Origin: Aceticella autotrophica
Lineage (GTDB): Bacteria; Bacillota; Thermoanaerobacteria; Thermoanaerobacterales; Thermoanaerobacteraceae
Direction of reading: 5' to 3'
Assembly: GCF_017357865.1 (NCBI RefSeq)
Contig: NZ_CP060096.1
Location: 992,001-1,056,000, forward strand
Length of the DNA: 64,000 nucleotides
The notes below the pieces were generated by a model, which searched no databases, was not told where the DNA came from, and saw only the letters and a list, made by a program, of their open reading frames with translations. A program made the translations under genes and the position numbers. Of this stretch, positions 32,652 to 64,000 are shown piece after piece. Numbering within the stretch: position 1 is the first letter of the stretch; every line of letters begins with the position of its first letter.

Positions 32652-33296
32652 ATGGAATTGTTAACTATAAGCAAAGCAGCAAAGAAAATAGGTGTCCATC
32701 CCAACAGCTTGCGTAACTGGGAGAAACAAGGTTTAATCAAGCCTGTCCGTTTGCCAAGTGGTCAGCGCCGATACTCCATAGACGAACTCAACAAGCTATT
32801 GCAGTCCGGACAGATAAACACTGGGCAGGAAGACGTTGTTTTATATGCCCGGGTATCCACCAAAAAGCAGGCAGATGCCGGCAATTTATACAGACAACTG
32901 GAAAGACTGAGGCAATATGCTAATGAATCAAATTACCATGTTGTTGCCGAGTTCACCGACGTAGCCAGCGGCTTAAATCAGAAGCGCCGTGGATTGACAA
33001 ATGTATTCAAGCTGGCTGAACGTGGTGAATACAAGAAGCTTATCATCGAATATCCCGACCGACTGACACGATTTGGGTATTCATACATCGAACGGCATTT
33101 GCATTATTGTGGTGTAGAGGTAATCGCCACATCTGAGAAAGAGCTAGAAGACGCACAATCCGAGCTGGTCAGGGACTTATTAGCGATAATCACGTCTTTT
33201 TCAGCTAAGCTGTATGGCACCAGAGGAGGTAAGAAGATAAGGCAGGGTTTCCGGGAACTGATAACGGAGGTGAAGTCAGATGAAGAAAAAGAATAA
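32652..33296 (+). CDS. tnpA: IS607-type serine recombinase TnpA
   Basis: A 214-residue transposase. A MerR-like helix-turn-helix (about 4-50, ISKAAKKIGVHPNSLRNWEK) is followed by a resolvase catalytic domain beginning VVLYARVSTKKQADAGNLYRQ. The Ser in ARVST is the nucleophile. EFTDVASGLNQKRRGL and EYPDRLTRFGYSYIE are conserved family segments. It performs double-strand cleavage and rejoining through a phosphoserine. It overlaps tnpB by 17 bases. Confidence 0.95.
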   Translation: MELLTISKAAKKIGVHPNSLRNWEKQGLIKPVRLPSGQRRYSIDELNKLLQSGQINTGQEDVVLYARVSTKKQADAGNLYRQLERLRQYANESNYHVVAEFTDVASGLNQKRRGLTNVFKLAERGEYKKLIIEYPDRLTRFGYSYIERHLHYCGVEVIATSEKELEDAQSELVRDLLAIITSFSAKLYGTRGGKKIRQGFRELITEVKSDEEKE

Positions 33297-45295: not shown

Positions 45296-45392
45296 ATATG
45301 AATAATTAAGAGGAAAGGAAACTGAATTAACCAAAATGACTGTAATAAGGAGCATTTAAAATTGCAATTTAAAATGAAAAGGAGGTATCTTG

Positions 45393-48300
45393 ATGTTAAA
45401 AATCGCAGCTTTTAGAGTTATTTTTGGACCGAGCACTGTGGGGCGTTTATATGAGCAGGCAATAGCTGAATTAAAAAGTGTTATAGATATAGAGTTTCGC
45501 TATGTCCAGCCGGCGGCAGCAGGACTGCCCATGCCGTCGCCGGATTGGCTTCGGTTTGCAAAGGAGGAAGCTGATGCGATTTTTTTTGGATTTCCATTGG
45601 AATTTAAGGCATTGGGGGACTTATTTAGACAGCTTAGTGAGGAATTGAAAAAGCCGGTTGTGCCGGTGACAACTGAGGTAGAGGGATTAGGCAACGTAGC
45701 ACCGGAGACGGTACAGCGTGCTATTGCTTATCACCTGTACGGTGGGAGAGAGAATCTGAAACAGTTTTTCTGTTGGTTAGGAGAGATTGCTGGAAGACTT
45801 CCGGAAGTACAGGCACAACTGCCACAGGAACTTCCATGGGCTGGATTTTACCATCCGAAGTCAAGCCGGTTTTACACTTCTTTAAAGGAGTACTTGGATT
45901 GGTACGGAGAACGACATCCACTTGTCGGACTTCTTTTCCCTCGGGTATTTTGGGTGGAGGAAAACCTATCGGGGTGTGATGCTATTATCGAAGAAATTGA
46001 ACGGCGCGGCGCCGGAGTGATTCCCGTTTTCAGTGATGGTTGGTTTGGCCAGGTAAAGAACGATGATGTAATCCGGCAGTTTTTCTTCCGCAATGGGAAG
46101 CCGGTTATTGAAGCCCTAGTAGCCTACAGTGCGTTTTTCCTCAAAACACAGCGGCAGGTTGTGGCACTGAAGCAGGAGCCTTCAAATGATGTACTTCGGG
46201 AGTTGAATGTGCCCGTTTTAAAAATGATTCAGGCGGCCAGCCAGACAGAAGAGCAATGGAGAGAAGACCCTCAGGGTTTAAATTTGCCGCAGGTAATCAT
46301 CAGTATTACCTTGCCGGAGTTCGATGGACTCATCGAGCCGCTTCTGGTTAGTGTGGCAGAAGATGAAAGCGATTTTGCACGAGCCAAGCCACTACGTAAG
46401 GAAGTAGGTTATTTGGTTGACAGAATGATGAAGTGGATTGAACTCCGACATAAGTCCAATGCTGAAAAAAAAGTAGCCTTCATCCTTTTGAATTCTCCCT
46501 GTAAGAGTGTAGAAGCTACGGTGGGTACGGCTTTCGGGCTTGATAGTTTAGAAAGCGTAGTACGCATCTTAAAGCAGATGAGTGATGAGGGATATCGCCT
46601 TGAATGGGTGCCACAAGATGGTCAAGAGCTAGCGGAAGCAATTTTGGGACGCAAAGCGCTTCCTGACTTTCGTTGGACAACATTGGATGAAGTGGTGACC
46701 AAAGGCGGCGCCGCAGCGCTCGTGCCATTAGAGAAGTATCTCTCTTGGTTTAATGAGCTTCCGGAAGAAGCCAGGGGAAAGGTAGCTGCGGCATGGGGCC
46801 ATCCTGGTGCGGCAATAGAGTTAAATGGAGTAGAAAAACTCTCTTTGGGTCTTTATGATGGACAAATTGTTATTCCCGGCATCATCACAGGTAACATCTT
46901 TATTGGCGTGCAGCCAAAGAGGGGTTGCGCTGGTTCCCGTTGCGATGGAGAAATTTGCAAAATCCTTCATGACCCCGATGTACCGCCGCCCCATCAGTGG
47001 CTGGCTTGGCACAAGTGGCTCGAGGAGGAATTTGGTGCCGACGTGATGGTACACGTAGGGACCCATGGGGTATTGGAGCTTCTGCCTGGCAAGACTACTG
47101 CTCTGTCTGAATCCTGCTTCCCCCGTATTTCTCTAGGTAAGGTACCGCACCTTTACATTTACAACCTGGTCAACCCAATGGAGGCGGTAGTGGCAAAACG
47201 GCGTTCGGCAGCAGTCATTGTAGATCACCTGCCGCCGGTTCTGGCTAGTATGCGGTTAAGCGGAGATCTTTTAGAGTTAGAGGAACTTTTAGAGGACTTT
47301 CAGAAGGCTGCAGGGATGAAGGAAAAGGCACGTGAGGCAGTGCTTTTGGAGCAGATTGAGAAGAAAGCTCGGGCAGCCGGATTGCTGCCCGAGGGTATGG
47401 AACCAGATCCTGCGATGCTGCATGAAAAACTCACCGTTTTGCGTGAGAGCCAGTTTCGTGACGGTCTGCATATATTTGGGGAGGCACCGAAAGGTGAAGC
47501 ACTGGCAGAATTGCTCAACACAGTACTCAGGTTGGACCAACCGGACTGCCCAGCTCTGAGACGGGCCATGGCAGATTGTTTTGGGTTGTATTACGATGAT
47601 ATGCTACAAAATCCTGAGGCGTTAGGACCGGATGGAATGACAAATGGCAAATTCCTGGACGACTTAGACCGGTTGGGTAGAGATATCCTGTTGGATATTT
47701 TAGATATTACGTTGGATTCGGATGACGAGGCAATGACATGTGCTGAAAAGCATCTATATGATTTTGCTAAACGTCATAACATTGTATTCAATTATAAAAA
47801 AGAGATGTTATCCAAGGTGATAACTAAGGCATTGCGAATCATTCCGCAGGTGCGCCGAACCACCGATGAGATAAGCAATCTTCTTAGAGGCTTCAACGGA
47901 GAGTTTATTGAGCCGGGGGCTTCCGGTGCTTTAGCACGAGGGAAGGTGGAAGTATTGCCAACCGGCCGCAACCTGTATTCTATTGATCCCTGGCGCATTC
48001 CTACATCAGCGGCTTGGGTGGTGGGTAAGCGTTTGGCTGAAGACCTCGTTGCTAAATATGTGAGCGATGAAGGTATTTATCCAGAGACTATTGGCTTTAC
48101 ACTACGAGCAATGGATCCCTTTCGAGCTGATGGTGAGATGATTGCCCAGATTCTTTATATTCTTGGTGTGGAGCCAATCTGGGTAGCAGGGCGAGTGGTA
48201 TCACTTAAGCCTATCTCATTGGAGAAACTCAGACGACCGCGTATTGACTGCATGGTGAACCTTTCATCAATCCTACGGGATGGGATGCCGCGGGCTTATG

Positions 48301-49274
48301 AGCTTATCGATCAAGCAGTGAAGATGGTGGCAGAACTTCCTGAACTATCGGAACAAAACTTTGTTCGTAAGCACGTTCTGGAACGCGAAGCTGAGTTAGC
48401 CGAAGAACATGGGGCAGAAGAAGCTAGGCGTCTGGCTAGCTTGCGGGTTTTTTCTTCAGCGCCTGGTACTTACGGTACCGGCGTAGAGCTGGCAGTGTCT
48501 GCATCTGCCTGGAAAGAAGAGAAGGACCTTGGCGAGGTTTATTTCCATTGGACAGGTTATGCCTATGGCGAGGGAGTATATGCTCGCAAAGCCACTGACG
48601 AGTTGATCGACAACTGCCGCCGGGTGACTGTGACCTTCGAGAAATTCGATTCCGACGAAATCGATCTCTTGGACTGCTGTCACATTTACGGGGTACATGG
48701 AGGCTTTACTGTGGCGGCGCAGGTGGCATCTGGGAAGGAAGTGAAGACCCTTTTCGGTGATACTCATGACCCGGCCCGCCCGGTTATCCGCACTTTACGC
48801 GAGGAGCTTTCCCGTATTGCCCACACTCGGCTTTTAAATCCAGCGTGGATTGAGGGTAAGAAACGCCATGGGTACAAAGGGGCTGGGGATATCTCCAGCA
48901 GGGTCGACCACATGTATGGCTGGCAGGCCACCACGCGACAGGTGGAAAACTGGGTTTTCGACGGTATAGCAGAAAAATTTATAGTGGACGAAGAAAATCG
49001 TAAGTTCTTTGAAGAAAACAATCCCTGGGCGCTGGAAGAAATTACTCGGCGGCTGTTGGAGGCCGAAAGCCGGGGGTTATGGCAGGCCGACCCGGAAATG
49101 TTAACTCAAGTAAAGGAAATTTACCTGAAAATCGAGGGTTGGATGGAAGAAAACATGGGTGAGGTCAAAGGCGAATTTCAGGGTGGAGCTATTGATATTA
49201 TAACATCTGAAGAGGTAGCTGATTGGAAATCTAAAATACAAGAAATCAAGGGAAAACTAGAAAAAGAAAATTAA
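45393..49274 (+). CDS. cobN: CobN-like chelatase large subunit 1
   Basis: 1293 residues, ATG 45393 after AAAAGGAGG. Homologous to CobN/ChlH, the tetrapyrrole-binding subunit of cobalt or magnesium chelatases. QPKRGCAGSRCDGEICKILH is at about 506-525, VHVGTHGVLELLPGK at about 552, and KRRSAAVIVDH follows. Near the end RHGYKGAGDISSRVDHMYGW and ENMGEVKGEFQGGAIDI are typical. Three Cys spaced C-X4-C-X4-C sit before HDPDVPPPHQ. Codon use is GC-rich at third positions compared with its AT-rich neighbours, suggesting transfer. No CobS/CobT-type ATPase partner is in the window. Confidence 0.9.
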   Translation: MLKIAAFRVIFGPSTVGRLYEQAIAELKSVIDIEFRYVQPAAAGLPMPSPDWLRFAKEEADAIFFGFPLEFKALGDLFRQLSEELKKPVVPVTTEVEGLGNVAPETVQRAIAYHLYGGRENLKQFFCWLGEIAGRLPEVQAQLPQELPWAGFYHPKSSRFYTSLKEYLDWYGERHPLVGLLFPRVFWVEENLSGCDAIIEEIERRGAGVIPVFSDGWFGQVKNDDVIRQFFFRNGKPVIEALVAYSAFFLKTQRQVVALKQEPSNDVLRELNVPVLKMIQAASQTEEQWREDPQGLNLPQVIISITLPEFDGLIEPLLVSVAEDESDFARAKPLRKEVGYLVDRMMKWIELRHKSNAEKKVAFILLNSPCKSVEATVGTAFGLDSLESVVRILKQMSDEGYRLEWVPQDGQELAEAILGRKALPDFRWTTLDEVVTKGGAAALVPLEKYLSWFNELPEEARGKVAAAWGHPGAAIELNGVEKLSLGLYDGQIVIPGIITGNIFIGVQPKRGCAGSRCDGEICKILHDPDVPPPHQWLAWHKWLEEEFGADVMVHVGTHGVLELLPGKTTALSESCFPRISLGKVPHLYIYNLVNPMEAVVAKRRSAAVIVDHLPPVLASMRLSGDLLELEELLEDFQKAAGMKEKAREAVLLEQIEKKARAAGLLPEGMEPDPAMLHEKLTVLRESQFRDGLHIFGEAPKGEALAELLNTVLRLDQPDCPALRRAMADCFGLYYDDMLQNPEALGPDGMTNGKFLDDLDRLGRDILLDILDITLDSDDEAMTCAEKHLYDFAKRHNIVFNYKKEMLSKVITKALRIIPQVRRTTDEISNLLRGFNGEFIEPGASGALARGKVEVLPTGRNLYSIDPWRIPTSAAWVVGKRLAEDLVAKYVSDEGIYPETIGFTLRAMDPFRADGEMIAQILYILGVEPIWVAGRVVSLKPISLEKLRRPRIDCMVNLSSILRDGMPRAYELIDQAVKMVAELPELSEQNFVRKHVLEREAELAEEHGAEEARRLASLRVFSSAPGTYGTGVELAVSASAWKEEKDLGEVYFHWTGYAYGEGVYARKATDELIDNCRRVTVTFEKFDSDEIDLLDCCHIYGVHGGFTVAAQVASGKEVKTLFGDTHDPARPVIRTLREELSRIAHTRLLNPAWIEGKKRHGYKGAGDISSRVDHMYGWQATTRQVENWVFDGIAEKFIVDEENRKFFEENNPWALEEITRRLLEAESRGLWQADPEMLTQVKEIYLKIEGWMEENMGEVKGEFQGGAIDIITSEEVADWKSKIQEIKGKLEKEN

Positions 49275-50932: not shown

Positions 50933-51484
50933 ATGGTAATAGAGCCACATAAAAGGTCTCAGGTAATGCCGCTTCCAGTTGTATTAATTTCTACAATAGA
51001 TAAAAAAGGAGTAAGAAATCTGGCTCCATGGTCTTGTGTTATGCCAATATTAAGACCGCTTGATGAAATTGCTATTGCTTCATGGATTAAACGTGATACT
51101 TTGAATAATATTCGTGAAACAGAAGAATTTGTCATAAATATACCAACAGCTGATATGATAGAAGCTGTTAAAATATCATCTCAGAATTTTCCGCCCGATG
51201 TTGATGAGTTTGAAAAAGCAGGTTTAAAATCTCATATATCTAAAAAAGTTAATGCTCCTGGTGTTGAAGATTGCCTAGCATGGGCTGAATGTAAATTAAT
51301 TGAAGAAATCAGTAGAAAAAATTATTCTTTAATTATAAGTAAAGTATTGCATCTTGAAGAAAATGATTCTTATTTTAATAATAAAGGAGAATTTGATTAT
51401 GAAAAAGCAAAGCCATTATTAATTTATAAGATGCGATTTTCATATCCAGTTAATGTTAGTAATGTAATGAATTTAAGTATATAA
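50933..51484 (+). CDS. Flavin reductase-like FMN-binding protein
   Basis: 183 residues, split-barrel flavoprotein fold: VMPLPVVLISTIDKKGVRNL, APWSCVMPILRPLDEIAIA, RDTLNNIRETEEFVINIPT and LAWAECKLIEEI. Members reduce or carry FMN and act in redox steps. It lies 22 bases after the TrmO-like gene, with AGGAGG. In a corrinoid or nickel-tetrapyrrole setting a metal- or ring-reducing role is conceivable, but nothing in the sequence fixes the substrate. Confidence 0.82.
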   Translation: MVIEPHKRSQVMPLPVVLISTIDKKGVRNLAPWSCVMPILRPLDEIAIASWIKRDTLNNIRETEEFVINIPTADMIEAVKISSQNFPPDVDEFEKAGLKSHISKKVNAPGVEDCLAWAECKLIEEISRKNYSLIISKVLHLEENDSYFNNKGEFDYEKAKPLLIYKMRFSYPVNVSNVMNLSI

Positions 51485-51773: not shown

Positions 51774-52913
51774 ATGAAAAACATATCATCACAATTTAAG
51801 TTTTTTGTTGTTGCATTGCTTACAATTGTTATCATTACTACAGCATGCAGCTCTAAAGCCCCTGTTCAGCAAAAACAGGAAACGACAACAGCACAACAGG
51901 AAACAAAACCGCAAAAGATTAATGTTACAGACCTTGCAGGTCGTCAGGTTGAACTTACTATTCCTGTAAATAGGGTTGTAGGTTTGACCAGTGCTTTAAG
52001 ATTCATTACATGCATAGACGGGGCTAAAAAAGTCGTTGGTATTGAGGATATTAATTTAAAAGCCACTGATGGTTTAACGTATAATACGGCATATAGAGAT
52101 GAATTATCAAAATTGCCAGTAGTTGGAGTAGGAGGGTCTAAGGCAGCTGCTAATCCAGAAAAGCTTGTAGAGGTAAAGCCAGATGTTATTTTTACAGGAT
52201 TTTCCGACAAATCACAGGCAGATAACCTTCAGACAAAGACAGGTATTCCTGTTGTAGTTTTAAGTTATGGAACTTCAATTTTTGATGAAGACTTTTATAA
52301 ATCTCTTAAGCTTGTTGGAAAAATTATGGGAGATGAAACAAGAGCACAGAAAGTAGTAGATTATATAAAAAATTGTCAGAAGGATTTAAATGACAGGACA
52401 AAAGGGATTCCAAACGATAAGAAACCAACGGTATATGTTGGAGCAGTTAGCCATGCTGGTTCTCATGGAATAGAAAGTACACGTGGTAATTATCCGCCAT
52501 TTGTAATTGTAAATGCTAAAAATGTTGCAGATGAAACTGGTAAAAATGGTAGTATTGATATAGATAAAGAAAAGCTTTTGTCATGGAATCCTGATATTAT
52601 TTTTATTGATGAGGGTGGTTTACCATTAGTTAAACAGGATTATCAAAAAGACCCGAAGTTTTATCAATCCTTAAAGGCGGTAAAAGATGGACATGTTTAT
52701 GGATTGTTGCCGTATGTATACAATGGAACTAATATTGATACAGCAATTGCTGATTGTTATTATGTAGGTAAGGTTTTATATCCGGAGCAGTTTAAGGATA
52801 TAGACCCTGCTAAAAAGGCGGATGAAATATACAAATTTTTCTATGGGAAACCTTTATATGAAACATTAGCTAAGTCTTCGGGTGGCTTTAAACAGATAAC
52901 CTTAGGTCAATAA
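51774..52913 (+). CDS. Iron-complex-type binding lipoprotein 4
   Basis: 379 residues, ATG after ACGGAGGG. The signal peptide has lipobox TTAC and differs from the shared cassette of its neighbours. A Gln/Thr-rich linker is followed by TDLAGRQVELTIPVNRVVGL, EKLVEVKPDVIFTGFSDKS, GIESTRGNYPPFVIVNAKNV and an LYPEQFKDIDPAKKADEIY tail. It is the first gene of a tight binding protein-permease-ATPase operon, and so most likely the cognate receptor of importer 2. Confidence 0.9.
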   Translation: MKNISSQFKFFVVALLTIVIITTACSSKAPVQQKQETTTAQQETKPQKINVTDLAGRQVELTIPVNRVVGLTSALRFITCIDGAKKVVGIEDINLKATDGLTYNTAYRDELSKLPVVGVGGSKAAANPEKLVEVKPDVIFTGFSDKSQADNLQTKTGIPVVVLSYGTSIFDEDFYKSLKLVGKIMGDETRAQKVVDYIKNCQKDLNDRTKGIPNDKKPTVYVGAVSHAGSHGIESTRGNYPPFVIVNAKNVADETGKNGSIDIDKEKLLSWNPDIIFIDEGGLPLVKQDYQKDPKFYQSLKAVKDGHVYGLLPYVYNGTNIDTAIADCYYVGKVLYPEQFKDIDPAKKADEIYKFFYGKPLYETLAKSSGGFKQITLGQ

Positions 52914-52950
52914 AATATCTAATATGAATTTAGGTAAGGAGATAAAAAAA

Positions 52951-54021
52951 GTGAAACAGCAAGCGATGGAAAACATTCCAAGCAGTTATCAGAAATATAC
53001 CGGAAGAAAAATTTTTATAATTTTATTGTGTGCACTTTTTGTTTTAGTTTTGTCAGTATATGCAATAAATGCCGGTTCTGCCGGTACCACCTTAAAGGAG
53101 GTATTGACGACCTTATTAAATAGAAGTGATAACAGGCTGAGTATTATTGTATGGAATATAAGATTGCCGAGGATTTTATCTGCGATTGTAGCGGGAGTTG
53201 GTCTTTCAATAGCCGGCTGTGTAATGCAGAGCATTCTTAGAAATCCTCTTGCCTCCCCTTTTACAATAGGTATTTCACAAGGTGCGGCATTTGGAGCGGC
53301 GATGGCTATCATTGCATTTGGAGCAGGCAGTGCACAAAACAGTGCATCTGAGTCAATAATCATCAATAATCCGTATATGGTTGTTATATTTGCATTTTTA
53401 GGAGCAATGTCATCAACGATAGTTATCCTTATGCTGTCTTCAATTTTCAGGGTAACTCCTGAAGCCATGATATTGACAGGTGTTGCTCTAAGCTCGTTGT
53501 TTTCGGCTGCTACTATGCTTCTGCAGTATTTTGCAGATGATGTGAACGTTGCTTCTGTGGTATTCTGGACATTTGGGGATATCGGAAGGGCGTCCTGGCG
53601 GGACTTACTTATCATGACTATAATCATTTTAGCCGGATTTGTTTATTTCATGTTTAACAGATGGAATTATAACGCCTTAAACAGCGGCGAAGAAACCGCA
53701 AAAGGACTTGGTGTAGATGTAGAAAGAATAAGATTAATAGGTATGTTTATAGCATCCTTAATAAGTGCGGTAACTGTTTCTTTCTTAGGCATAATTGGTT
53801 TTATCGGATTAGCAGGTCCTCATATAATGAGAAGGCTGATTGGAGGAGACCATCGCTTTTTAATCCCTGCTTCAGGAGTTATTGGAGGACTGCTGCTTTT
53901 AGGTTCTGACACCATAGGAAGAACGGTTATTGCTCCGATAGTGCTTCCGGTAGGAGCTATAACTTCCCTTTTTGGAGCACCGCTCTTTTTATATCTCCTT
54001 TCAAGGAGGCTTAACAGATGA
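52951..54021 (+). CDS. FecCD-type permease 2
   Basis: 356 residues from GTG 52951, which has AAGGAG at proper spacing; an ATG nine codons earlier lacks a ribosome site. About ten membrane helices with IRLPRILSAIVAGVGLSIAG, MQSILRNPLASPFTIGIS and FIGLAGPHIMRRLIGGD (coupling segment). It is similar to permease 1 in the same island but not identical, so the island carries two full importers. The stop overlaps the ATPase start (ATGA). Confidence 0.94.
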   Translation: MKQQAMENIPSSYQKYTGRKIFIILLCALFVLVLSVYAINAGSAGTTLKEVLTTLLNRSDNRLSIIVWNIRLPRILSAIVAGVGLSIAGCVMQSILRNPLASPFTIGISQGAAFGAAMAIIAFGAGSAQNSASESIIINNPYMVVIFAFLGAMSSTIVILMLSSIFRVTPEAMILTGVALSSLFSAATMLLQYFADDVNVASVVFWTFGDIGRASWRDLLIMTIIILAGFVYFMFNRWNYNALNSGEETAKGLGVDVERIRLIGMFIASLISAVTVSFLGIIGFIGLAGPHIMRRLIGGDHRFLIPASGVIGGLLLLGSDTIGRTVIAPIVLPVGAITSLFGAPLFLYLLSRRLNR

Positions 54022-54770
54022 TATTAGAAGTAGATGGAATAGAATTCAGATATATAAGCGTACCCACATTAAAAGATGTAAGTTTCAGTCTCAAAAGGGG
54101 AGAACTGCTGTCTGTTTTAGGGAATAATGGTGCTGGAAAGTCTACACTTTTAAAATGCATCAACAGGATTTTAAAGCCGCAAAAAGGCACAGCATACATT
54201 GAAAAAAGAGATATTGCAAAATTAAGCCGCAGGGAAGTAGCACAAAAGATGGGATATGTCGCACAAAGATATGAAAATGCTCGTTTTACGGTATTTGATG
54301 CCGTTCTTCTTGGAAGAAAACCCCATATCAAATGGGATGTTACAAAGAAGGATATGGATATAGTAAACAGGGTTTTAGAAAAATTAAACCTACAGCAATT
54401 TGCACTGCGATATTTAGATGAATTAAGCGGTGGGGAACTGCAAAAGGTTGTTATAGCAAGAGCATTGGCGCAGGAACCGCAGGTACTTTTGTTGGACGAA
54501 CCGACAAGCAACCTGGATTTAAAAAATCAAATCGAGGTGCTGAGGATACTGAAACAGACAGTAGAAGAGGAAAATATTGCTGCAATTGTTATAATGCATG
54601 ACCTTAATCTGTCATTAAGGTTTTCTAACAAATTTCTGCTTTTAAAAGATAAGACAATTTTTGCCTGTGGAGGGATGGAAATCATGACATCAAAAAATAT
54701 AGCATCTGTTTATGGGATTCCCATTGCTGTAGAAAAATTTCATGATATACCCGTGGTTGTTCCGTTATAA
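54018..54770 (+). CDS. FecE/BtuD-type ABC ATPase 2
   Basis: 250 residues. Walker A GNNGAGKST, Q-loop MGYVAQRYENARFTVFDAV, signature LSGGELQKVVIARALAQ, Walker B LLLDEPTSNLD. Partner of the upstream permease through translational coupling. It ends 63 bases before the CooC-like gene, so maturation and import genes may share a transcript. Confidence 0.94.
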   Translation: MILEVDGIEFRYISVPTLKDVSFSLKRGELLSVLGNNGAGKSTLLKCINRILKPQKGTAYIEKRDIAKLSRREVAQKMGYVAQRYENARFTVFDAVLLGRKPHIKWDVTKKDMDIVNRVLEKLNLQQFALRYLDELSGGELQKVVIARALAQEPQVLLLDEPTSNLDLKNQIEVLRILKQTVEEENIAAIVIMHDLNLSLRFSNKFLLLKDKTIFACGGMEIMTSKNIASVYGIPIAVEKFHDIPVVVPL

Positions 54771-55604: not shown

Positions 55605-55626
55605 TAAAAAGGTGGTATATAAATCA

Positions 55627-56517
55627 ATGGAATCGCTTAATAAAAGACTTTGTGAAGTGGATTTTTGGCAGAATGTTTGGGAAGATGCCAAGAATTCTTC
55701 ATTTAATATGAGGAAAAAAATTCGCACTGAAAAAGAAGATATTGAATTTTGGAATAAATTTGCACCATCATATGGAAAAAATACTTCCGGGAGAGGTAAG
55801 GAACGCTTAGAGAAGGTCATAAGGCTTCTCGAAAGTGAAGGGATACTTTCTCCGGAAGCAGAGATTTTGGATATCGGTTGTGGTCCAGGAACATATGCAA
55901 TACCGTTTGCAAAAAGAGTAAAATCGGTTACGGCGGTTGACGGTGCCGAAGAAATGTGCAGAATTCTCAAGGAAAATATGGAAAAGTCAGGACTAAAAAA
56001 TATAAATATATTGAATAGGTTATGGGGGGATGTGGATATTAAAAAAGAAGGGCTTGAAAATGGTTTTGACCTTGTATTTGCCTCTATGACACCTGCTGTA
56101 AGTGATTATAAAGCCTTAATGAAAATGAATGAAGCCTCAAGGAAATATTGCTGCTTAATATCGTGGGCTGGAGCGAGATTTAATCCAGCAAGAAATGAAT
56201 TATGGAAAATTATATTTCATGAGGAAGACAAAGGCATGGCTAATATGATTATTTATCCATTTAACCTTCTTTATAGTTTAGGATATTATCCTACAATGCA
56301 GTACCTTAATACAGGATGGATGCAAGAAGAAACCATAGATGAGGCTGTTGAAAGTTTGTCACGTACGTTTTGGAGATTTACAGAAATCACTCCTGAGATT
56401 AAAGACATTATCTATAATTATGTTAAGGAAAAGGCGAAAGATGGTCTATTCCGCCAAGAAACAAAGGTTCGGATGGGTATTATGACATGGCGTGTTGATG
56501 AAGGAGGAAAGATTTAA
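55627..56517 (+). CDS. Class I SAM-dependent methyltransferase
   Basis: 296 residues, ATG 55627 after AAAAAGGTGG (long spacing of about 12). The SAM motif ILDIGCGPGTYAIPFAKRV is at about 79-97, with AVDGAEEM as motif II and FDLVFASMTPAV as motif IV. The substrate is not readable; small-molecule methylation is typical for this fold. It is 22 bases downstream of the CooC-like gene and precedes the regulated promoter of cobN copy 2. Confidence 0.85.
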   Translation: MESLNKRLCEVDFWQNVWEDAKNSSFNMRKKIRTEKEDIEFWNKFAPSYGKNTSGRGKERLEKVIRLLESEGILSPEAEILDIGCGPGTYAIPFAKRVKSVTAVDGAEEMCRILKENMEKSGLKNINILNRLWGDVDIKKEGLENGFDLVFASMTPAVSDYKALMKMNEASRKYCCLISWAGARFNPARNELWKIIFHEEDKGMANMIIYPFNLLYSLGYYPTMQYLNTGWMQEETIDEAVESLSRTFWRFTEITPEIKDIIYNYVKEKAKDGLFRQETKVRMGIMTWRVDEGGKI

Positions 56518-56545: not shown

Positions 56546-56574
56546 TTGACATTAATATCAGCTTGTGTTATTAT
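56546..56574 (+). promoter_or_regulatory. Promoter of cobN copy 2
   Basis: TTGACA (56546-56551), a 17-base spacer and TATTAT (56569-56574). The ATG at 56648 is about 67 bases after the expected start of transcription. Confidence 0.75.
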
Positions 56575-56602
56575 TATCAATGATATAGCACAAGCTGATA
56601 TT
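56554..56602 (+). promoter_or_regulatory. Perfect inverted repeat overlapping the cobN 2 promoter
   Basis: AATATCAGCTTGTG (56554-56567) and CACAAGCTGATATT (56589-56602) are exact complements 21 bases apart. The left arm fills the -35/-10 spacer and the right arm lies just past the expected transcription start, the geometry of a repressor operator. The regulator is unknown. Confidence 0.75.
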
Positions 56603-56647
56603 CTTAAGTTTGTTTTTACTAATAATCTTAAAATAGGGGGGAAATTA

Positions 56648-59600
56648 ATGAAAAAAGTTACCGCTGTAGTATGGCATAGTCATGCCACACCAATTAGAAA
56701 GGCTGGTGAGAAGGTAAAAGAAGCTTTGGATGTGAAGGTTTATTCAGCACGCTTTCTTGAGGAAGGGAAGGAAGACATTGAAGAAGTATATAAAGAAATG
56801 GAAACCTCTGATCTTATATTCTTTTACAGATCCTCAGAAGAAAGCATATGGGCGGAGTTGGAAGCAAAGGCAAAAGATTTAAATAAACCTATTGTGTGCA
56901 GTTCTTTTGATCCTACTTTTTGGTCTATGTCCAATGTAGATTTTAGTATACCTGCCAAATGTTATAGCTATATAACACAAGGAGGAAACGAAAATTTTGT
57001 TCAGATGCTTTTGATGCTGGCATCAGAAATATTACATGAGAATGTTGATTATGCGGACCCTAAAATATATCCGTGGGAAGGAATCTATCATCCGGAAGCA
57101 AAGAAAAGCTTTTCATCTACTGTGGAGTACTTCTCATGGTATAAAAATTATAGAGAAAATGCTGTAAAGGATAAAGCATTTAGCGAATTACCGGCAGTAG
57201 GTTTGCTATTTGCCCGCAGTTATTGGGTAAATAACAATACGGCTGTGGAAGACATGCTGATTCATACCTTGGAAGAAAAAGGGCTGAATGTTATACCTGT
57301 TTTTTGTTATTCTGTTAAAGATGAAGGACTAGGTACAAGAAGTTCTGGAGAAATCGTACGGGAATATTTTATGAAAGATGGTAAACCTCTAATTAATGCC
57401 ATGATAAAGCTTATGTCCTTCTTTTTAGAAAGTGGGAAAAATGAATTCGATAAAAAAGAAACGGCTTGTAAAGGTGTATCTTTGTTGAAAGAATTAGGAG
57501 TACCTGTATTTGAACCGGTGGTATCTTATTACAAGACCGTTGAGGAGTGGACAAATGATCCTCAAGGCTTGAATACAGATATCTCTTGGACAATAGCCAT
57601 GCCTGAATTTGAAGGTGTCATAGAACCTATATTCATTGGAGGCATAAAAAGAGAAGGCGGCGTGGAATCAAGAGAACCGATGAAAGAGAGGGTGGAGAAG
57701 CTGTCTGAGCGTGTACTCAAGTGGATAAAGCTTCAGCTTAAACCCGTCAAGAAAAGAAAAGTAGCTTTTATGCTAAATAATAACCCTTGTGCTTCAGTAG
57801 AAGCAACAGTCGGAGGAGGAGCAAACTTAGATACATTGGAAAGTGTTGCCCGTATAATAAATCAAATGAGAAAGATCGGTTATAATGTAGACCCTCCTGC
57901 TGATGGTAAAGAATTAATTGAAACGATTATGGATAGAAAAGCCATATCCGAATTCAGATGGACAACTATTGACGAGATTGTCAGCAAAGGTGGCGTTATA
58001 AAATTCATGGATGTGGATGAATATTGCCGTTGGTTTGACACATTTGAACCAATGGTTAAAAAGCGCATAACGGAGGCATGGGGCAATCCGCCGGGAGAAG
58101 AAATGAATGGTGTACCGGCAGCTATGGTATATGAGGGTAAGATTGCCATAACAGGTGTAAAATATGGAAATGCCTATGTTTGCGTGCAGCCAAAAAGAGG
58201 ATGTGCAGGTTCTAGATGTGACGGTCGGGTTTGCAAAATACTGCATGACCCTGATATTCCACCTCCTCATCAATATATAGCTACTTATAAATATCTTGAA
58301 GAACAGGTTGATGTTATTGTACATGTAGGAACACATGGCAATCTTGAATGGTTACCCGGTAAGGGTGTTGCATTATCTCAAAATTGCTATCCTGATATTG
58401 CCATTGGAACTATTCCACATCTATATATCTATAATGCTGATAACCCACCTGAAGGAACCATAGCCAAAAGGAGGAGTTATGCCACACTCGTTGATCATAT
58501 GCAAACCATAATGACGCAAGGAGGACTTTATGATGACCTTGCCGAGCTTGACAGATATATGGAGGAATATGAAAAGGCTAAGGTCGCAGATCCTACAAGA
58601 GCTCACATGTTGCAGCATATGATAATAGATGAAATAAAACGTACAAATCTTGACAAGCAGATACCGCTGGAAGATCCACATAATTCCTTTAAAGAAATAG
58701 CGGAAAAGGTTCATGGTCTGCTTTCAGAAATCAGAAATACGCAAATTCAAGATGGTCAGCATATATTTGGGGATATTCCTGAAGGAGAGCGCCGTGTAGA
58801 ATTTATAAATTCTATCATGCGTTTTGACAGCGGAAATGAAATATCACTAAGAAAAGTAGTAGCAAGGCTTATGAAATTAGAGCTTTCTGAACTTCTCAGT
58901 GATCAAAGCAGGATTTGCCAACAATACGGAAAATCCTATGGGGCTCTTTTGGAAGATATTGATAGAGCTTCTAAAGCCTTTTTAGCTCATCTTATTGAGG
59001 GTATAGAGGTCAATGCAAATCTCGCAGGAGACATATTGAAAGAAAAATTTATTTGTGAAGAACCCCTAAAAGATCTAAATGCTCTTTTGCCCCGTGTGAC
59101 AGATTTAAGTGAAAGGATTGAAGCGTCAAAAGAGATAGATGCTCTCTTATCCGGTTTTAATGGAAAATACATTCCAGCCGGACCATCGGGTTTGATTACA
59201 AGAGGCAGGGATGATATTTTGCCGACAGGCAGGAACTTTTATTCATTAGATCCTCATAGGGTTCCTACTAAAGCGGCATATGAGGTTGGAAAACGTCTTG
59301 CGGATAAAGTTATAGAAAAGCACCTTAATGAAGAAGGACGATATCCTGAAAACATAGCCGTATATTGGATGTGCAATGATATTATGTGGGCAGACGGAGA
59401 AGGTATGGGTCAAATGCTTTATTTATTAGGAGTACGTCCAAAATGGCTATCTAATGGTCGTGTTGGAGGTATTGAGGTTATTCCACTGGAAGAGCTTGGG
59501 CGTCCCAGAATTGATTTAACAATCAGGGTTTCAGGCATCACCCGTGACAATTTCCCCAACTGCGTGGAGTTGCTGGATGAGGCTGTTCAGACCGTTGCTG

Positions 59601-60490
59601 CTTTAAATGAGCCTGAAGACAAGAACTTTGTTCGAAAACATACCCTTTCACAATTGGAGGGGGATAAAGGGGAAGAAGCTTGGAGAAACGCCACATTAAG
59701 GATATTTGCATCTAAACCCGGTACCTATTCACCCGGTGTAAATCTTGCAGTTTATGCTTCAGCTTGGAAAGAAGAAAAGGACCTTGCCGATATCTTTGTT
59801 TACTGGAATGGATATGCGTATGGCAAGGGTACATTTGGCAAAGAGGCTTTCAAAGAACTTCAGTCAAGCCTTAAAACCGTTGATGTAACCTACAACAAGG
59901 TAGTAAGTGATGAATATGACCTTTTTGGTTGTTGCTGCTATTTTGGTACTCATGGCGGAATGACAGCAGCGGCAAGGGTGGCTTCCGGAAAGGAGGTGAA
60001 AACCTACTACGGTGATACCAGGGAGCCCGAACACGTTGAAGTGAGAACCTTAGCAGATGAAGTGAGAAGGGTTGTGAGAACTAAGCTTTTAAATCCTAAA
60101 TGGATAGAAGGGCAGAAACGGCACGGTTATAAGGGGGCAGGTGATATTTCCAAGAGAGTTGGCAGGGTTTATGGCTGGGAAGCAACGACACAGGAGGTAG
60201 ATGACTGGATTTTTGACGATATTACAAGGACTTTTATTCTCAATGAAGAAAACCGCCAGTTTTTCAAAGAAAACAACCCATGGGCAATGGAAGAAATAAC
60301 CCGACGTCTTTTGGAGGCTCATCAGAGAGACCTATGGAAGGCTGATCCTGAAGTGCTTGAAGGTCTGAAGCAAACCTATCTTGAGGTAGAGGGATGGTTG
60401 GAAGAAAACATGGGCGATGTAAAGGGAGAGTTTCAAGGTGGCGCTATCGATATCCTCACGGCAGAAGAGGTAGCTGACTGGGGGGGCTAA
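56648..60490 (+). CDS. cobN: CobN-like chelatase large subunit 2
   Basis: 1280 residues. ATG 56648 after AGGGGGGAAATTA is chosen; the frame runs 34 codons further upstream through the promoter dyad, which cannot be coding. QPKRGCAGSRCDGRVCKILH is at about 513-532, VHVGTHGNLEWLPGKG at about 558, and GRPRIDLTIRVSGITRDNFP near 955. GYKGAGDISKRVGRVYGWEA and FQGGAIDI come at the end. The same Cys triad as in copy 1 is kept. Codon use is AT-rich like the host. Metal and tetrapyrrole are unknown; ATPase partners are absent here. Confidence 0.92.
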   Translation: MKKVTAVVWHSHATPIRKAGEKVKEALDVKVYSARFLEEGKEDIEEVYKEMETSDLIFFYRSSEESIWAELEAKAKDLNKPIVCSSFDPTFWSMSNVDFSIPAKCYSYITQGGNENFVQMLLMLASEILHENVDYADPKIYPWEGIYHPEAKKSFSSTVEYFSWYKNYRENAVKDKAFSELPAVGLLFARSYWVNNNTAVEDMLIHTLEEKGLNVIPVFCYSVKDEGLGTRSSGEIVREYFMKDGKPLINAMIKLMSFFLESGKNEFDKKETACKGVSLLKELGVPVFEPVVSYYKTVEEWTNDPQGLNTDISWTIAMPEFEGVIEPIFIGGIKREGGVESREPMKERVEKLSERVLKWIKLQLKPVKKRKVAFMLNNNPCASVEATVGGGANLDTLESVARIINQMRKIGYNVDPPADGKELIETIMDRKAISEFRWTTIDEIVSKGGVIKFMDVDEYCRWFDTFEPMVKKRITEAWGNPPGEEMNGVPAAMVYEGKIAITGVKYGNAYVCVQPKRGCAGSRCDGRVCKILHDPDIPPPHQYIATYKYLEEQVDVIVHVGTHGNLEWLPGKGVALSQNCYPDIAIGTIPHLYIYNADNPPEGTIAKRRSYATLVDHMQTIMTQGGLYDDLAELDRYMEEYEKAKVADPTRAHMLQHMIIDEIKRTNLDKQIPLEDPHNSFKEIAEKVHGLLSEIRNTQIQDGQHIFGDIPEGERRVEFINSIMRFDSGNEISLRKVVARLMKLELSELLSDQSRICQQYGKSYGALLEDIDRASKAFLAHLIEGIEVNANLAGDILKEKFICEEPLKDLNALLPRVTDLSERIEASKEIDALLSGFNGKYIPAGPSGLITRGRDDILPTGRNFYSLDPHRVPTKAAYEVGKRLADKVIEKHLNEEGRYPENIAVYWMCNDIMWADGEGMGQMLYLLGVRPKWLSNGRVGGIEVIPLEELGRPRIDLTIRVSGITRDNFPNCVELLDEAVQTVAALNEPEDKNFVRKHTLSQLEGDKGEEAWRNATLRIFASKPGTYSPGVNLAVYASAWKEEKDLADIFVYWNGYAYGKGTFGKEAFKELQSSLKTVDVTYNKVVSDEYDLFGCCCYFGTHGGMTAAARVASGKEVKTYYGDTREPEHVEVRTLADEVRRVVRTKLLNPKWIEGQKRHGYKGAGDISKRVGRVYGWEATTQEVDDWIFDDITRTFILNEENRQFFKENNPWAMEEITRRLLEAHQRDLWKADPEVLEGLKQTYLEVEGWLEENMGDVKGEFQGGAIDILTAEEVADWGG

Positions 60491-60524: not shown

Positions 60525-61017
60525 AATTAAAACTTTAAGGAGGATTTTGAATGAAAAGGAAGATTTGCTTTTTAATGATTTTTGTTCTGTTAATGACATT
60601 GTTTCCTGCTTTTGGACTTGCAGATACAGCCAAGTCACAGGAAACACAGGTTTATCTAAACGGGATAAAGATAAATACAGGAGATGTTTCACCATTTATA
60701 GAAAATGGGCGAACAATGGTGCCTGTAAGGCTTTTTTCCGAGAATCTCGGTGCAGATGTAAAATGGGATGATGCTGCACAAACTGTGACAATACAAGGTC
60801 AAGATGTCAGTGTGAAATTAACCATTGGCAAAAATGAAGCTGTTGTAAACGGCAAAAACAAAATCCTTGATGTTGCACCTGTGGTTTTATCGGGCAGGAC
60901 AATCGTTCCATTGAGATTTATAGTGGAAGCCTTTGGTGCTGATGTAAAGTGGGATGATGCGGCATTTAAGGCGGTAGTGACTTGGAATGTTAAAATCAAG
61001 GATTCTACAGGAAATAA
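60523..61017 (+). repeat. Duplicated block, copy B
   Basis: Near-identical partner of 42473-42967. Only scattered substitutions are seen (for example GTACAA versus GCACAA, ATAAAA versus ATACAA), so duplication or gene conversion is recent. Confidence 0.9.
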
Positions 61018-61951
61018 TGTAACAGTACCTGCAGGTTTAAACAGAATAGTGGTTTTAAATACCGATGCGGCAGAGGCACTTCGCATATTACAGATTCCAG
61101 ACGATTTCATAGTAGGTGTAAGTGATACCGTCCAAACAGACCCCTATATTGGTTTGAATAATAAACAAAATATCGGAAAATGGCAAACACCTACTATTGA
61201 AAAAATCATGTCAGTAAAGCCTCAGGCAGTTATTACCTATGGAAGGTAGCCTGACAAAACATTGGAAGATAATTTAAAACCTGCCGGTATCAAGGTTATA
61301 AGGCTTGACCTTTATAAACCCGAGACATATGACAATGACCTTAAAACATTGGCTAAAATATTCGGAAGGGTAAAGACAGCAGATGAGTTTATACAATGGA
61401 AAGCAGAGAAAATAGCACTTGTAGCTGATAGGGTAAAGGATTTGAAGCCGGAAAACAAGGTTAAGGTGTTTGGAATTTGGAATAGCTCTTTAACAGGAAC
61501 AACATGGAAAACATTTGCCCAAAATACTTCTATACACCAAGGATTAGAAGCAGCCGGTGGGATAAATGTTGCCCGTGATATGAAGGATTACCCACAAATA
61601 AACCCCGAATGGATTTTAGATAAAAATCCTGATATAATAGTTATAGGCACATATGATAAAGATGTGCTTGGATATGCGGTTAAAGATAATACAAATGCTG
61701 CAAAATTAAGAGATAGTGCTATAACTAATGCAGTTTTAAGCAAAACTAATGCCGGTAAAAATAAGAAGATTTATATTATTAATACAAAGCTATTTGGTGG
61801 CTGCAAAACATATCTGGGAACTTTCTATCTTGCCAAATGGATGTATCCTGATCGCTTTAAGGATGTCAACCCCGATCAGGTATTAAAGGAGTATTTTGAA
61901 AAATGGCTTGGGATACCATTTAAAGGCGTATGGGCTTACCCTGCTCCTTAA
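60551..61951 (+). pseudogene. Stalk-domain binding protein interrupted by one amber codon
   Basis: One continuous frame homologous over its whole 466 codons to the protein at 42501, but with TAG at 61247-61249. The intact paralogue has TYGQYPAE where this copy reads TYGR-stop-PDK, so the codon replaces a Tyr (one base change from TAT or TAC). Downstream the domain continues intact to FAKWMYPDRF-like and GVWAYPAP ends. Without readthrough a 232-residue secreted fragment results, lacking most of the ligand-binding domain. The downstream part has no signal peptide. Confidence 0.8.
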
Positions 61952-61982: not shown

Positions 61983-63218
61983 GTGTTAAAATATCAAAAA
62001 ATCAGTATAAAATTAATATTTGTTTTTGTTCTTGCAAGTATAATTTGTGCTAAACCATTAGTATCATTAAGTGCGGGGGGGAATTCCCCCTCCCTTAATG
62101 AATATACATCTGGCATGCATATGGCGCAGACAAAGATTGCAGAGATTCTACGCCATAATGGATGCTATCCTTCTTCTATTGCGGTAAAGGTATGGGGAAA
62201 AGATGTGGCAGGTGCAGAAGGCGTTAGCATTTCCGTTGCAATGTATGCTTTAGGTGTAAAACCACAGTGGGATGCTGCCGGTAATATAACCGGAGTAGAT
62301 ATAATAAGTACAAGTGATTTGGGAAGACAGCGGATTGATGCTTTTATTATAATTGACGGTGATATTTCGGACAGTTTCAAGCCTGCTATAATTTCTATGG
62401 ATAGTGCATATAGAAAGGTCCTTGCTTGTTCCTACAATACGCTTATAAATAAATATCCGGAGCTTAAATATTCCTTAGACAGAACCCTAAAACCTATTGG
62501 TAATTATAACAAGGGGAATGAAACATTAGAAGAAAATCCTCTTGCAGCACATTGGGCAGAAGGTGTTAAATCATTTTTGGCAAAAGGGACTGACCCGGTT
62601 TCCGCAGGGGAGATGTCGCTAAGCTTAAGAATGATTGATTCCAATAAAAAAGAACTGCCCAAAGATGCTGAGGTCATAAATACTTCTGTTAATAGTACAA
62701 ATACTATGGAAATAATATTTGGAAAAGGCACAGGGAGTGGCACAGGCTCTGGAAGTGGTACAGGAAGTGGCACAGGCTCAGGAGATACTGGAAACGGTAC
62801 AGGAAGTGGCACAGGCTCAGGAGATACTGGAAACGGTACAGGAAGTGGCACAGGCTCTGGAAGCAATTCCAATACCACGGGTGTTGTAAAAAGCAGTGGA
62901 AATAACGCATCTTCTGAAGGTACCAAATCAGCGAACCCTGAAAAAGCTATTGTTAATTCTTCAAAGGAAGATAAAAATAAAGAAGGGTATGGAATAGCAA
63001 CAACCTCTCAGAATGAGGTAGCGGTAAAACCAAGTGGTGGAGGAAGTTCCGGTAAAAGCGGAGGGGGTTCCGGTACAGGTCATGTTTATGAAGTTAGCGT
63101 AGAAAATCAGCAAGTTCCCAAGGAAGACGTACAAAATGCCAATTATATATATTTATTTGCTCTATCAATGATTATGATTGGTATGTTCTATCAGAATAAA
63201 AAAGGTTATTTGAGGTGA
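61983..63218 (+). CDS. Secreted, membrane-anchored CobN-domain protein
   Basis: 411 residues from GTG 61983 after GAGGCGAGGG. An N-terminal signal peptide (cleavage near SLSA, residue 31) is present. Residues about 45-150 align with a C-terminal piece of CobN: YPSSIAVKVWGKD versus YPENIAVYWMCND, ALGVKPQW versus LLGVRPKW, and LGRQRIDAFIIIDGDISDSF versus LGRPRIDLTIRVSGITRDNF. Similarity may extend to about 215. A Gly/Thr/Ser-rich linker (about 247-300) and a Ser/Gly-rich part follow, then one C-terminal transmembrane helix (about 385-403) and basic tail. Predicted outside, tail-anchored. Next to an ExbB-like gene. Confidence 0.82.
   Translation: MLKYQKISIKLIFVFVLASIICAKPLVSLSAGGNSPSLNEYTSGMHMAQTKIAEILRHNGCYPSSIAVKVWGKDVAGAEGVSISVAMYALGVKPQWDAAGNITGVDIISTSDLGRQRIDAFIIIDGDISDSFKPAIISMDSAYRKVLACSYNTLINKYPELKYSLDRTLKPIGNYNKGNETLEENPLAAHWAEGVKSFLAKGTDPVSAGEMSLSLRMIDSNKKELPKDAEVINTSVNSTNTMEIIFGKGTGSGTGSGSGTGSGTGSGDTGNGTGSGTGSGDTGNGTGSGTGSGSNSNTTGVVKSSGNNASSEGTKSANPEKAIVNSSKEDKNKEGYGIATTSQNEVAVKPSGGGSSGKSGGGSGTGHVYEVSVENQQVPKEDVQNANYIYLFALSMIMIGMFYQNKKGYLR
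62757..62858 (+). repeat. 39-base tandem repeat coding for the Gly/Thr/Ser linker
   Basis: Two full 39-base copies (62757-62795, 62796-62834) and a partial third. Each encodes GTGSGTGSGDTGN. In-frame units allow the linker length to vary by 13 residues. Confidence 0.85.
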
Positions 63219-63223
63219 AATGA

Positions 63224-63865
63224 ATGATTTTAAGTAAAACATTACATTGGATATCACAAAGTCTGCTTATACCGGTTATTATATCCTTGTGGATTTTTCT
63301 CTTATGGAGTCTTGTAGAACTTGGAAGTTTTATAGTAGAAAGCATACGCAGAAAGAAAATTCCCGCTGACAGGCTTATAACCTATTTCAAGGATATGTCT
63401 GATTTTGACGCACTTGAAAAATTTATCGAAGAAAGCAAACTGCCAAGGAATGGCAAACAAATATTGATAAAACTTTATCAGAACAAGGACATTCCTGAAA
63501 CCTCACTTATTGCTTTAAAGAAAAAATTAATTGAAGCTGAGGAAATAAGGGCAACAAAGGTATTAGAAAAAACCGATATAATTGCAAAGCTTGGTCCCCT
63601 CGTTGGCTTGATGGGGACATTGATACCATTGGGACCGGGGCTTATGGCTATGGCAAATGGTGACATGAAATTATTAGCCGAATCAGTTAGTGTTGCTTTT
63701 GACAATACGGTAGTTGGTATGGGTGCGGCAGGAATATCAAGTGTCATATCAAAGGTTAGAAGGAGATGGTATGAAGAATATCTAAGTACCATTGATGAAA
63801 TAGCTAACTTATTTACGGAGGTATTGATAAATGAAAAAGAGAAACAATACAATATCAAGGCTTGA
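63224..63865 (+). CDS. MotA/TolQ/ExbB-family proton channel protein
   Basis: 213 residues with about three membrane helices (about 14-38, 120-140, 155-178) and a cytoplasmic loop rich in Lys/Glu between the first two. KLGPLVGLMGTLIPLGPGL and VAFDNTVVGMGAAGISSVI are the ExbB/TolQ signature. ExbB-type channels use the proton gradient to drive a partner, usually ExbD/TonB across an outer membrane. Here the partner is probably the DUF2149 protein, whose start overlaps, and the membrane-anchored CobN-domain protein upstream. Confidence 0.9.
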   Translation: MILSKTLHWISQSLLIPVIISLWIFLLWSLVELGSFIVESIRRKKIPADRLITYFKDMSDFDALEKFIEESKLPRNGKQILIKLYQNKDIPETSLIALKKKLIEAEEIRATKVLEKTDIIAKLGPLVGLMGTLIPLGPGLMAMANGDMKLLAESVSVAFDNTVVGMGAAGISSVISKVRRRWYEEYLSTIDEIANLFTEVLINEKEKQYNIKA

Positions 63866-64000
63866 AGATGATGATGAAGAATTCAACCCGCTGGCATATG
63901 TGGTGAATCTTGCTGATTTGATGCTGGTGTTTGCATGTGGTTTGATGGTTTCTCTAATGCTTAGCTGGAGTGGTGGCAAGATTTTGCCAAGTGAATTAAA
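63831..64000 (+). CDS. DUF2149 protein (ExbD-like), 3' truncated
   Basis: ATG 63831 after ACGGAGG overlaps the end of the ExbB-like gene by 35 bases in another frame. The 56 visible residues have an acidic N-terminus (RLEDDDEEFNPLAYVVN) and one transmembrane helix (LADLMLVFACGLMVSLM), the DUF2149/ExbD-like layout with an Asp at the start of the helix. In ExbD the corresponding Asp takes part in proton flow. The gene runs out of the window. Confidence 0.78.
   Translation, partial: MKKRNNTISRLEDDDEEFNPLAYVVNLADLMLVFACGLMVSLMLSWSGGKILPSEL

Follow-up and report, generated by a model that had tools for sequence, protein, structure and literature searches.

An exported CobN fragment beside an ExbB/DUF2149 pair suggests a powered metal-chelate uptake device in single-membrane cells

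Results

An Exported Piece of CobN

Close to the end of the window, a stretch of 64,000 nucleotides from Aceticella autotrophica (contig NZ_CP060096.1, positions 992,001 to 1,056,000), three consecutive genes code for an exported protein bearing a piece of CobN, called SPC here, an ExbB-family channel subunit and a DUF2149 protein (Table 1). The association of the fragment with a TonB-like motor, and the existence of relatives of this motor with other exported "heads", suggest a powered metal-chelate uptake device in single-membrane cells. An earlier note, made from the letters of this DNA, had read the first two genes with the same limits and had proposed a signal peptide, a linker and a C-terminal anchor for the first one, a layout with which hydropathy and sequence agree. 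Beyond that note, the same motor was found to carry other heads, and genes for ChlI and then ChlD follow the trio in the same orientation, just past the window end (L005).

Table 1. Coordinates of the trio, of the segments of SPC and of the surrounding cluster in the window.
Feature	Position	Strand	Evidence and remarks
Second full-length cytosolic CobN of the cluster	45390..49274	+	PF02514 E 0
Flavin reductase-like protein	50933..51484	+	PF01613; homologues at the fragment loci of G405 and G173
Chelate-type ABC importer: binding lipoprotein, FecCD-type permease, ATPase	51774..54770	+	permease and ATPase named from sequence
SAM methyltransferase	55612..56517	+	Pfam; homologues at the fragment loci of G070 and G173
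Full-length cytosolic CobN	56546..60490; likely start ATG about 56648	+	PF02514 E 0
Cu_amine_oxidN1 + Peripla_BP_2 binding protein, TAG-interrupted	60551..61951	+	Pfam
Exported protein with a fragment of CobN domain V (SPC)	61983..63218	+	GTG start, 411 aa; PF02514, orthologues, AF2
Signal peptide MLKYQKISIKLIFVFVLASIICAKPLVSLSA (predicted)	61983..62075	+	sequence, hydropathy
CobN domain V homology, residues 36–149	62088..62429	+	PF02514 profile 725–838/1090; VIA Z 20.3 to 9fpc
Insert of about 33 aa (CSYNTLINKYPELKYSLDRTLKPIGN...)	62427..62525	+	alignment, tree; common to full-length exported "expB" CobN-like proteins
Flexible Gly/Ser/Thr-rich linker with repeats	62727..63080	+	sequence
Juxtamembrane box HVYEV (Y369-E370)	63081..63095	+	box statistics over head-protein tails
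C-terminal transmembrane helix, then short basic tail QNKKGYLR	63144..63191 (helix)	+	hydropathy
ExbB/TolQ/MotA-family channel subunit	63224..63865	+	PF01618 E 2.7e-10; invariant T132, T162, TLIPLGP stretch
DUF2149 (HmuV-type) subunit	63832..64000, cut at window end; ends at window-equivalent 64142	+	PF09919

The hydropathy of SPC showed two hydrophobic segments, one N-terminal and one C-terminal; the N-terminal signal or helix and the C-terminal membrane helix of HmuS-type proteins are both present. The model PF02514 (CobN-Mg_chel) matched residues 36–149 with 81.4 bits for a cut-off of 24.5 (E 5e-23), and 9/9 CobN/BchH NCBIfam models placed the match on the same stretch. The CobN homology announced by the earlier note was thus confirmed, but not its assignment to the C-terminal part: the match corresponds to domain V, after which the chelatase has one more structural block. 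The layout of a full-length cytosolic chelatase is absent from SPC, which consists of 411 residues with a signal peptide and the fragment only.

Five bases separate the SPC gene from the ExbB gene, and the ExbB and DUF2149 genes overlap. Upstream of SPC, chelate transport genes of the FecCD type form two sets; the binding lipoprotein of the set listed in Table 1 had its best NCBIfam matches among siderophore and heme types, all below their cut-offs. The CobN encoded at 56546..60490 is a probable partner. The binding-protein gene between this CobN and SPC is interrupted by an in-frame TAG at 61247–61249, a position occupied by Trp in genome G405, its halves being otherwise intact; this corresponds to a nonsense mutation or a sequencing error. 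No cobalamin riboswitch reached the gathering score before the two-CobN cluster of the window; one was observed ahead of the genome's third CobN locus (L006:18012-18188, minus strand). Elsewhere in the window (32652–34971), a MerR-resolvase gene overlaps a 563-aa ORF devoid of a Pfam match and looks IS607-type, and a similar resolvase is present at L006:15954-16604.

Fold of the Head and Loss of Catalytic Residues

The AlphaFold2 model of SPC residues 30–245 was confident (pLDDT 85, pTM 0.83). The best-matching structure was 9fpc, a C-terminal construct of CobN (Foldseek E 1.7e-11, VIA Z 20.3); M. tuberculosis CobN, ChlH and HmuS (residues 971–1204) came next. The best unrelated fold reached a Z of 5.4, the rest were lower and no other family was prominent. 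From the six-domain chelatase body (I–VI), SPC keeps only the part corresponding to positions 725–838 of the 1090 in PF02514, the HmuS counterpart of which starts at about residue 970.

In HmuS, domain V forms a conserved face of the central cleft, the site of porphyrin docking (PMC12583661). The catalytic His-538 of HmuS belongs to domain III, which is missing from SPC. The segment of domain V with His-1209 is missing as well from the SPC of the window; in the longer copies of a second Bacillota family (f31) it is changed and reads ILDQDDLPLEY. Most of the HmuS cleft-lining residues are missing or altered in the window's SPC. Because the other chelatase domains and the catalytic histidines are missing, the head is, as judged from its sequence, neither a chelatase nor any enzyme. 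Metal extraction by the exported piece itself is unsupported since these histidines are missing and domain V is only partial. It is possible that the head binds a tetrapyrrole or a chelate.

Distribution, Selection and Origin of the Fragment

The fragment is rare, being present in 3 of 398 genomes drawn from the phylum. Within the same family it was present in 2 of 20 genomes, the other member being G405, with two copies and 59% identity over the matched stretch. It was also detected in the second Bacillota family (G070, G173 and G223, with a partial match in a fourth genome) and in Desulfovirgula thermocuniculi (L095). The co-occurrence in other genomes that the earlier note had named as a test was observed: the trio recurs in G405, in G070, G173 and G223, and in D. 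thermocuniculi. In the second genus, represented by G405, the genes run in an identical order (CobN, binding protein, fragment, ExbB, DUF2149, ChlI, ChlD). The Desulfovirgula fragment comes after an ABC ATPase of the chelate type and a binding-protein gene with Cu_amine_oxidN1. Opp-type ABC ATPases precede the fragments of the second family, and the substrate may therefore differ there. A full-length cytosolic CobN was present in 5/5 genomes with the fragment versus 0/6 sampled genomes with other heads, a distribution which involves only two families and suits a chelate-related role of the fragment head.

The signal peptide, the anchor and the motor are intact in all seven fragment copies (7/7). 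The dN/dS ratio of the head was 0.14 between G000 and G405, with synonymous sites near saturation, and 0.16–0.17 within the second family, where synonymous sites were unsaturated. The SPC head is under purifying selection, at a dN/dS of about 0.15. The two G405 copies (L047 and L048) encode identical fragment proteins, and the second cluster holds CobN and ChlI remnants, which suggests a recent duplication and decay of this cluster.

In a maximum-likelihood tree, the fragments formed one clade (99/99), the nearest group being the full-length exported CobN-like proteins expB, and a branch with 100/99 support parted fragments and expB from cytosolic CobN and HmuS-like proteins; the tool warned of long branches meeting, and the insert of about 33 residues provides independent support. 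This insert is present in the fragments and in expB, and missing from cytosolic CobN and HmuS-like proteins. Given the tree and the common insert, the fragment most likely arose via truncation of an exported, motor-linked chelatase. An origin as a duplicate of the neighbouring cytosolic CobN was ruled out by the same two observations.

The ExbB/DUF2149 Pair

The ExbB-like channel expected downstream of SPC was recognised by PF01618; against PDB sequences, it gave weak MotA matches only (E 0.0012). Among 22 sequences, the threonines T132 and T162 are invariant, one in each pore-helix region (TLIPLGP stretch; AFxxT). The DUF2149 protein, read in L005:5832-6143, matched PF09919 (E 8e-10, 39.4 bits for a gathering score of 27.1) and is invariant at N26 and D29, where the transmembrane helix starts. 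The DUF2149 assignment of the earlier note therefore stands, and its term "ExbD-like" rests on the position and the invariant membrane Asp: hhalign gave a probability of 0.3% against ExbD, from thin alignments in which only the segment of the membrane Asp aligned, in register. A comparison of DUF2149 with the sequences of solved structures gave nothing significant. DUF2149 adjoins ExbB in 118 of 119 ExbB hits, a set made of the best 80 of 569 ExbB relatives (pattern search with an ExbB alignment on genome contigs) and of further genomes. Both subunits retain the residues expected for an ion path.

Exchangeable Heads and a Common Anchor

In most ExbB/DUF2149 loci, an exported protein with a C-terminal helix is encoded directly upstream or downstream. 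The heads were of several types, namely HmuS-like full-length chelatase, CobN fragment, molybdopterin-type domain, DUF3344 and FmdE, some of them with Ig-like domains. The pterin-type domain showed a weak match to oxidoreductase molybdopterin-binding proteins, and its model (pLDDT 75) matched sulfite oxidase and the pterin-binding PruR. Such sulfite-oxidase/PruR-like heads with Ig-like and chitobiase-C-type domains (L090:5286-6977 and similar ones, L063-L084 and L089-L155) were hosted by Syntrophomonas, Pelotomaculum and relatives. An exported FmdE-domain protein with the tail GRAYEV (L111:8210-11395) and an exported DUF3344 protein (L049:10769-12406) were also seen beside ExbB/DUF2149.

These different heads have their anchor in common. 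Searched against a collection of 1432 tails, a profile built on heads other than the CobN type recovered the fragment tails (E 2e-12, 6e-5 and 0.0014, with a range to 0.15), and in reverse a fragment-tail profile recovered other heads at up to 2e-9. The box [YF]E[ILVMF] was found before the last helix in 54 of 72 head proteins versus 10 of 297 other ORFs with a C-terminal transmembrane segment, and 7 of these 10 resemble head proteins missed by the selection. The corresponding Fisher value of 1e-38, for a box defined after the tails were inspected, overstates the strength because the sequences are related. All fragments (6/6) and all HmuS-like heads (12/12) carry the box. It was absent from the five Bacteroidota HmuS tails (0/5; L204-L208), in which another short segment (GVVLKKNE, SVVLEKDK) sits at the place of the YE box.

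Discussion

Comparison with Known Systems

Exported CobN-like proteins associated with ExbB and DUF2149 have been described before; new relative to Hmu are the missing catalytic parts, the cell without an outer membrane and the several head types on one motor. In the literature searched, no description was found of a catalytically stripped, monoderm, multi-head variant of Hmu. The hmu operons encode an exported CobN-like protein with the ExbB-family HmuU and the DUF2149 protein HmuV (PMC12583661, PMC13227078, PMC10434189). In Bacteroidota, exported HmuS handles heme beside these same two gene types, and in current models HmuU/HmuV energise the outer-membrane receptor HmuR (PMC12583661). The likeness to the window lies in the CobN-family exported protein, its membrane segments at both ends and the ExbB-family and DUF2149 genes. 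However, HmuS is a six-domain heme dechelatase working in a diderm with HmuY/HmuR, whereas the window holds only a non-catalytic domain V piece in a cell without Omp85, and the Bacteroidota tails lack the YE box. We argue from the monoderm loci that the ExbB/DUF2149 pair acts directly on the exported protein of the CobN type.

The Zur-regulated PA1921-PA1925 genes of P. aeruginosa start with a methyltransferase and also encode an Exb-type protein, a DUF2149 protein and a protein resembling CobN (PMC4542158, PMC9431628). The same four kinds of genes are present in the cluster of the window, the methyltransferases being matched by description, but the Pseudomonas system belongs to a diderm, has a TonB-dependent receptor and is under zinc control. 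At PA1923-PA1925 as in hmu, the exported CobN-like protein is full length and the hosts are diderm (PMC12583661, PMC10434189, PMC9431628). The full-length exported CobN-like proteins of Bacillota, expA and expB (for example Carboxydocella L050 and Ammonifex L087), occur with the same ExbB/DUF2149 pair and mostly have the same C-terminal anchor; unlike the fragment, they are 1300–1800 aa long, carry an HxGxH motif and are potentially catalytic. Like TonB-ExbB-ExbD, the trio combines a channel of the ExbB family with a small one-helix partner, which has an Asp in the membrane, and with a third protein that extends outward. In contrast, the system of the window has no outer membrane, TonB or receptor, its third protein is exported by a signal peptide and anchored C-terminally, and DUF2149 is not detectably homologous to ExbD.

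A Motor without an Outer Membrane

Motors of the Ton, Tol and Exb families are generally taken to exist for powering the outer membrane. Ton genes in monoderms have been termed likely non-functional (PMC12204202); these systems resemble the present one in having ExbB-type motors in one-membrane cells, but the study treats tonB and receptor genes and leaves DUF2149 unmentioned. The earlier note had held that this kind of organism has no outer membrane, and indeed Omp85 was found in 0/35 DUF2149 genomes, the genome of the window among them. No classical ExbD was found in the latter genome, and no TonB-dependent receptor among the cluster genes examined. With neither Omp85 nor classical ExbD, the motor cannot serve a usual outer membrane: if Omp85 is taken as the mark of an outer membrane, the outer-membrane customer of a Ton motor is absent in this genome. 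In a draw of 299 genomes from the phylum, 74 had a classical ExbD (PF02472).

Proposed Mechanism and Alternatives

We propose, at slightly below even chances, that the trio works as an ion-driven device on the surface of a single-membrane cell, where it handles a tetrapyrrole or metal chelate and feeds an ABC importer. In this model, ExbB and DUF2149 would make up a cytoplasmic-membrane motor resembling ExbB/ExbD, and the exported protein would dock into this motor via its C-terminal helix and YE box. The flexible tether would bear the non-catalytic domain V, which would bind a tetrapyrrole or a similar metal chelate, or a binding protein loaded with one. Strokes of the motor would pull on the ligand or free it, and the ligand would pass to the binding lipoproteins and then to the FecCD-type ABC importer of the cluster. 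Inside the cell, full-length CobN and ChlI/ChlD would insert or remove metal. The model builds on the observed architecture, the conserved gene set, the lost catalytic domains, the purifying selection and the anchor common to different heads. Against it speak the missing or altered cleft-lining residues, the insignificant similarity of DUF2149 to ExbD, the Bacteroidota HmuS tails devoid of the YE box, the lack of a cobalamin riboswitch before the cluster, the stop codon in the adjacent binding-protein gene and the Opp-type ABC genes of the second family. Like the earlier note, we thus infer a device acting on a tetrapyrrole or chelate; motor activity, the ion-driven force, the ligand, the direction and the hand-over are all parts of this proposal.

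The head might instead act as a sensor or gate, its ligand altering the ion flow through ExbB/DUF2149 or signalling the availability of chelate. A small and non-catalytic head on a long flexible linker, and the interchangeability of heads, would fit such a role, but ExbB relatives normally generate force, and no kinase, anti-sigma factor or regulator was found in the stretches examined around the trio; we consider it unlikely. Slightly less probable still is a scaffold, with the fragment docking or assembling the binding proteins and the ABC importer while the motor merely anchors or stabilises, or acts on the cell wall. This would agree with the presence of a Cu_amine_oxidN1 protein at most 4 kb away in 37 of 118 loci and the fusion of this domain into some heads. 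Against it, ExbB and DUF2149 keep ion-path residues, and a channel pair is needless for a simple anchor.

It is very improbable that SPC is a decaying, functionless remnant of an exported HmuS-like chelatase, as the strong truncation, the interrupted neighbouring binding-protein gene and the location of one of the two G405 copies in a degraded cluster might suggest. The low dN/dS of the head in two families, the seven intact copies and the confident fold oppose this, and a pseudogene reading is disfavoured by the dN/dS of about 0.15. A conventional Ton system for an outer membrane, to which the ExbB family membership would point, is hardly credible and was rejected given the missing Omp85 and classical ExbD, to which the lack of a TonB-dependent receptor among the cluster genes examined adds.

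Somewhat more tentatively than the ion-driven device itself, we propose that monoderms and methanogens possess a general ExbB-DUF2149 surface motor with swappable heads (chelatase, fragment, pterin-type, FmdE, DUF3344) fixed by a common C-terminal box and helix. Such a motor would be a TonB-like energy-coupling system of cells devoid of an outer membrane, with the CobN fragment as its minimal head for gripping tetrapyrroles. If this is true, ion-driven pulling at the surface would be used without an outer membrane. The fragment would split the gripping of the ligand from catalysis in the CobN/HmuS family, and therefore what HmuU/HmuV do in heme uptake, and PA1924/PA1925 under zinc starvation, would be directly testable in a small system.
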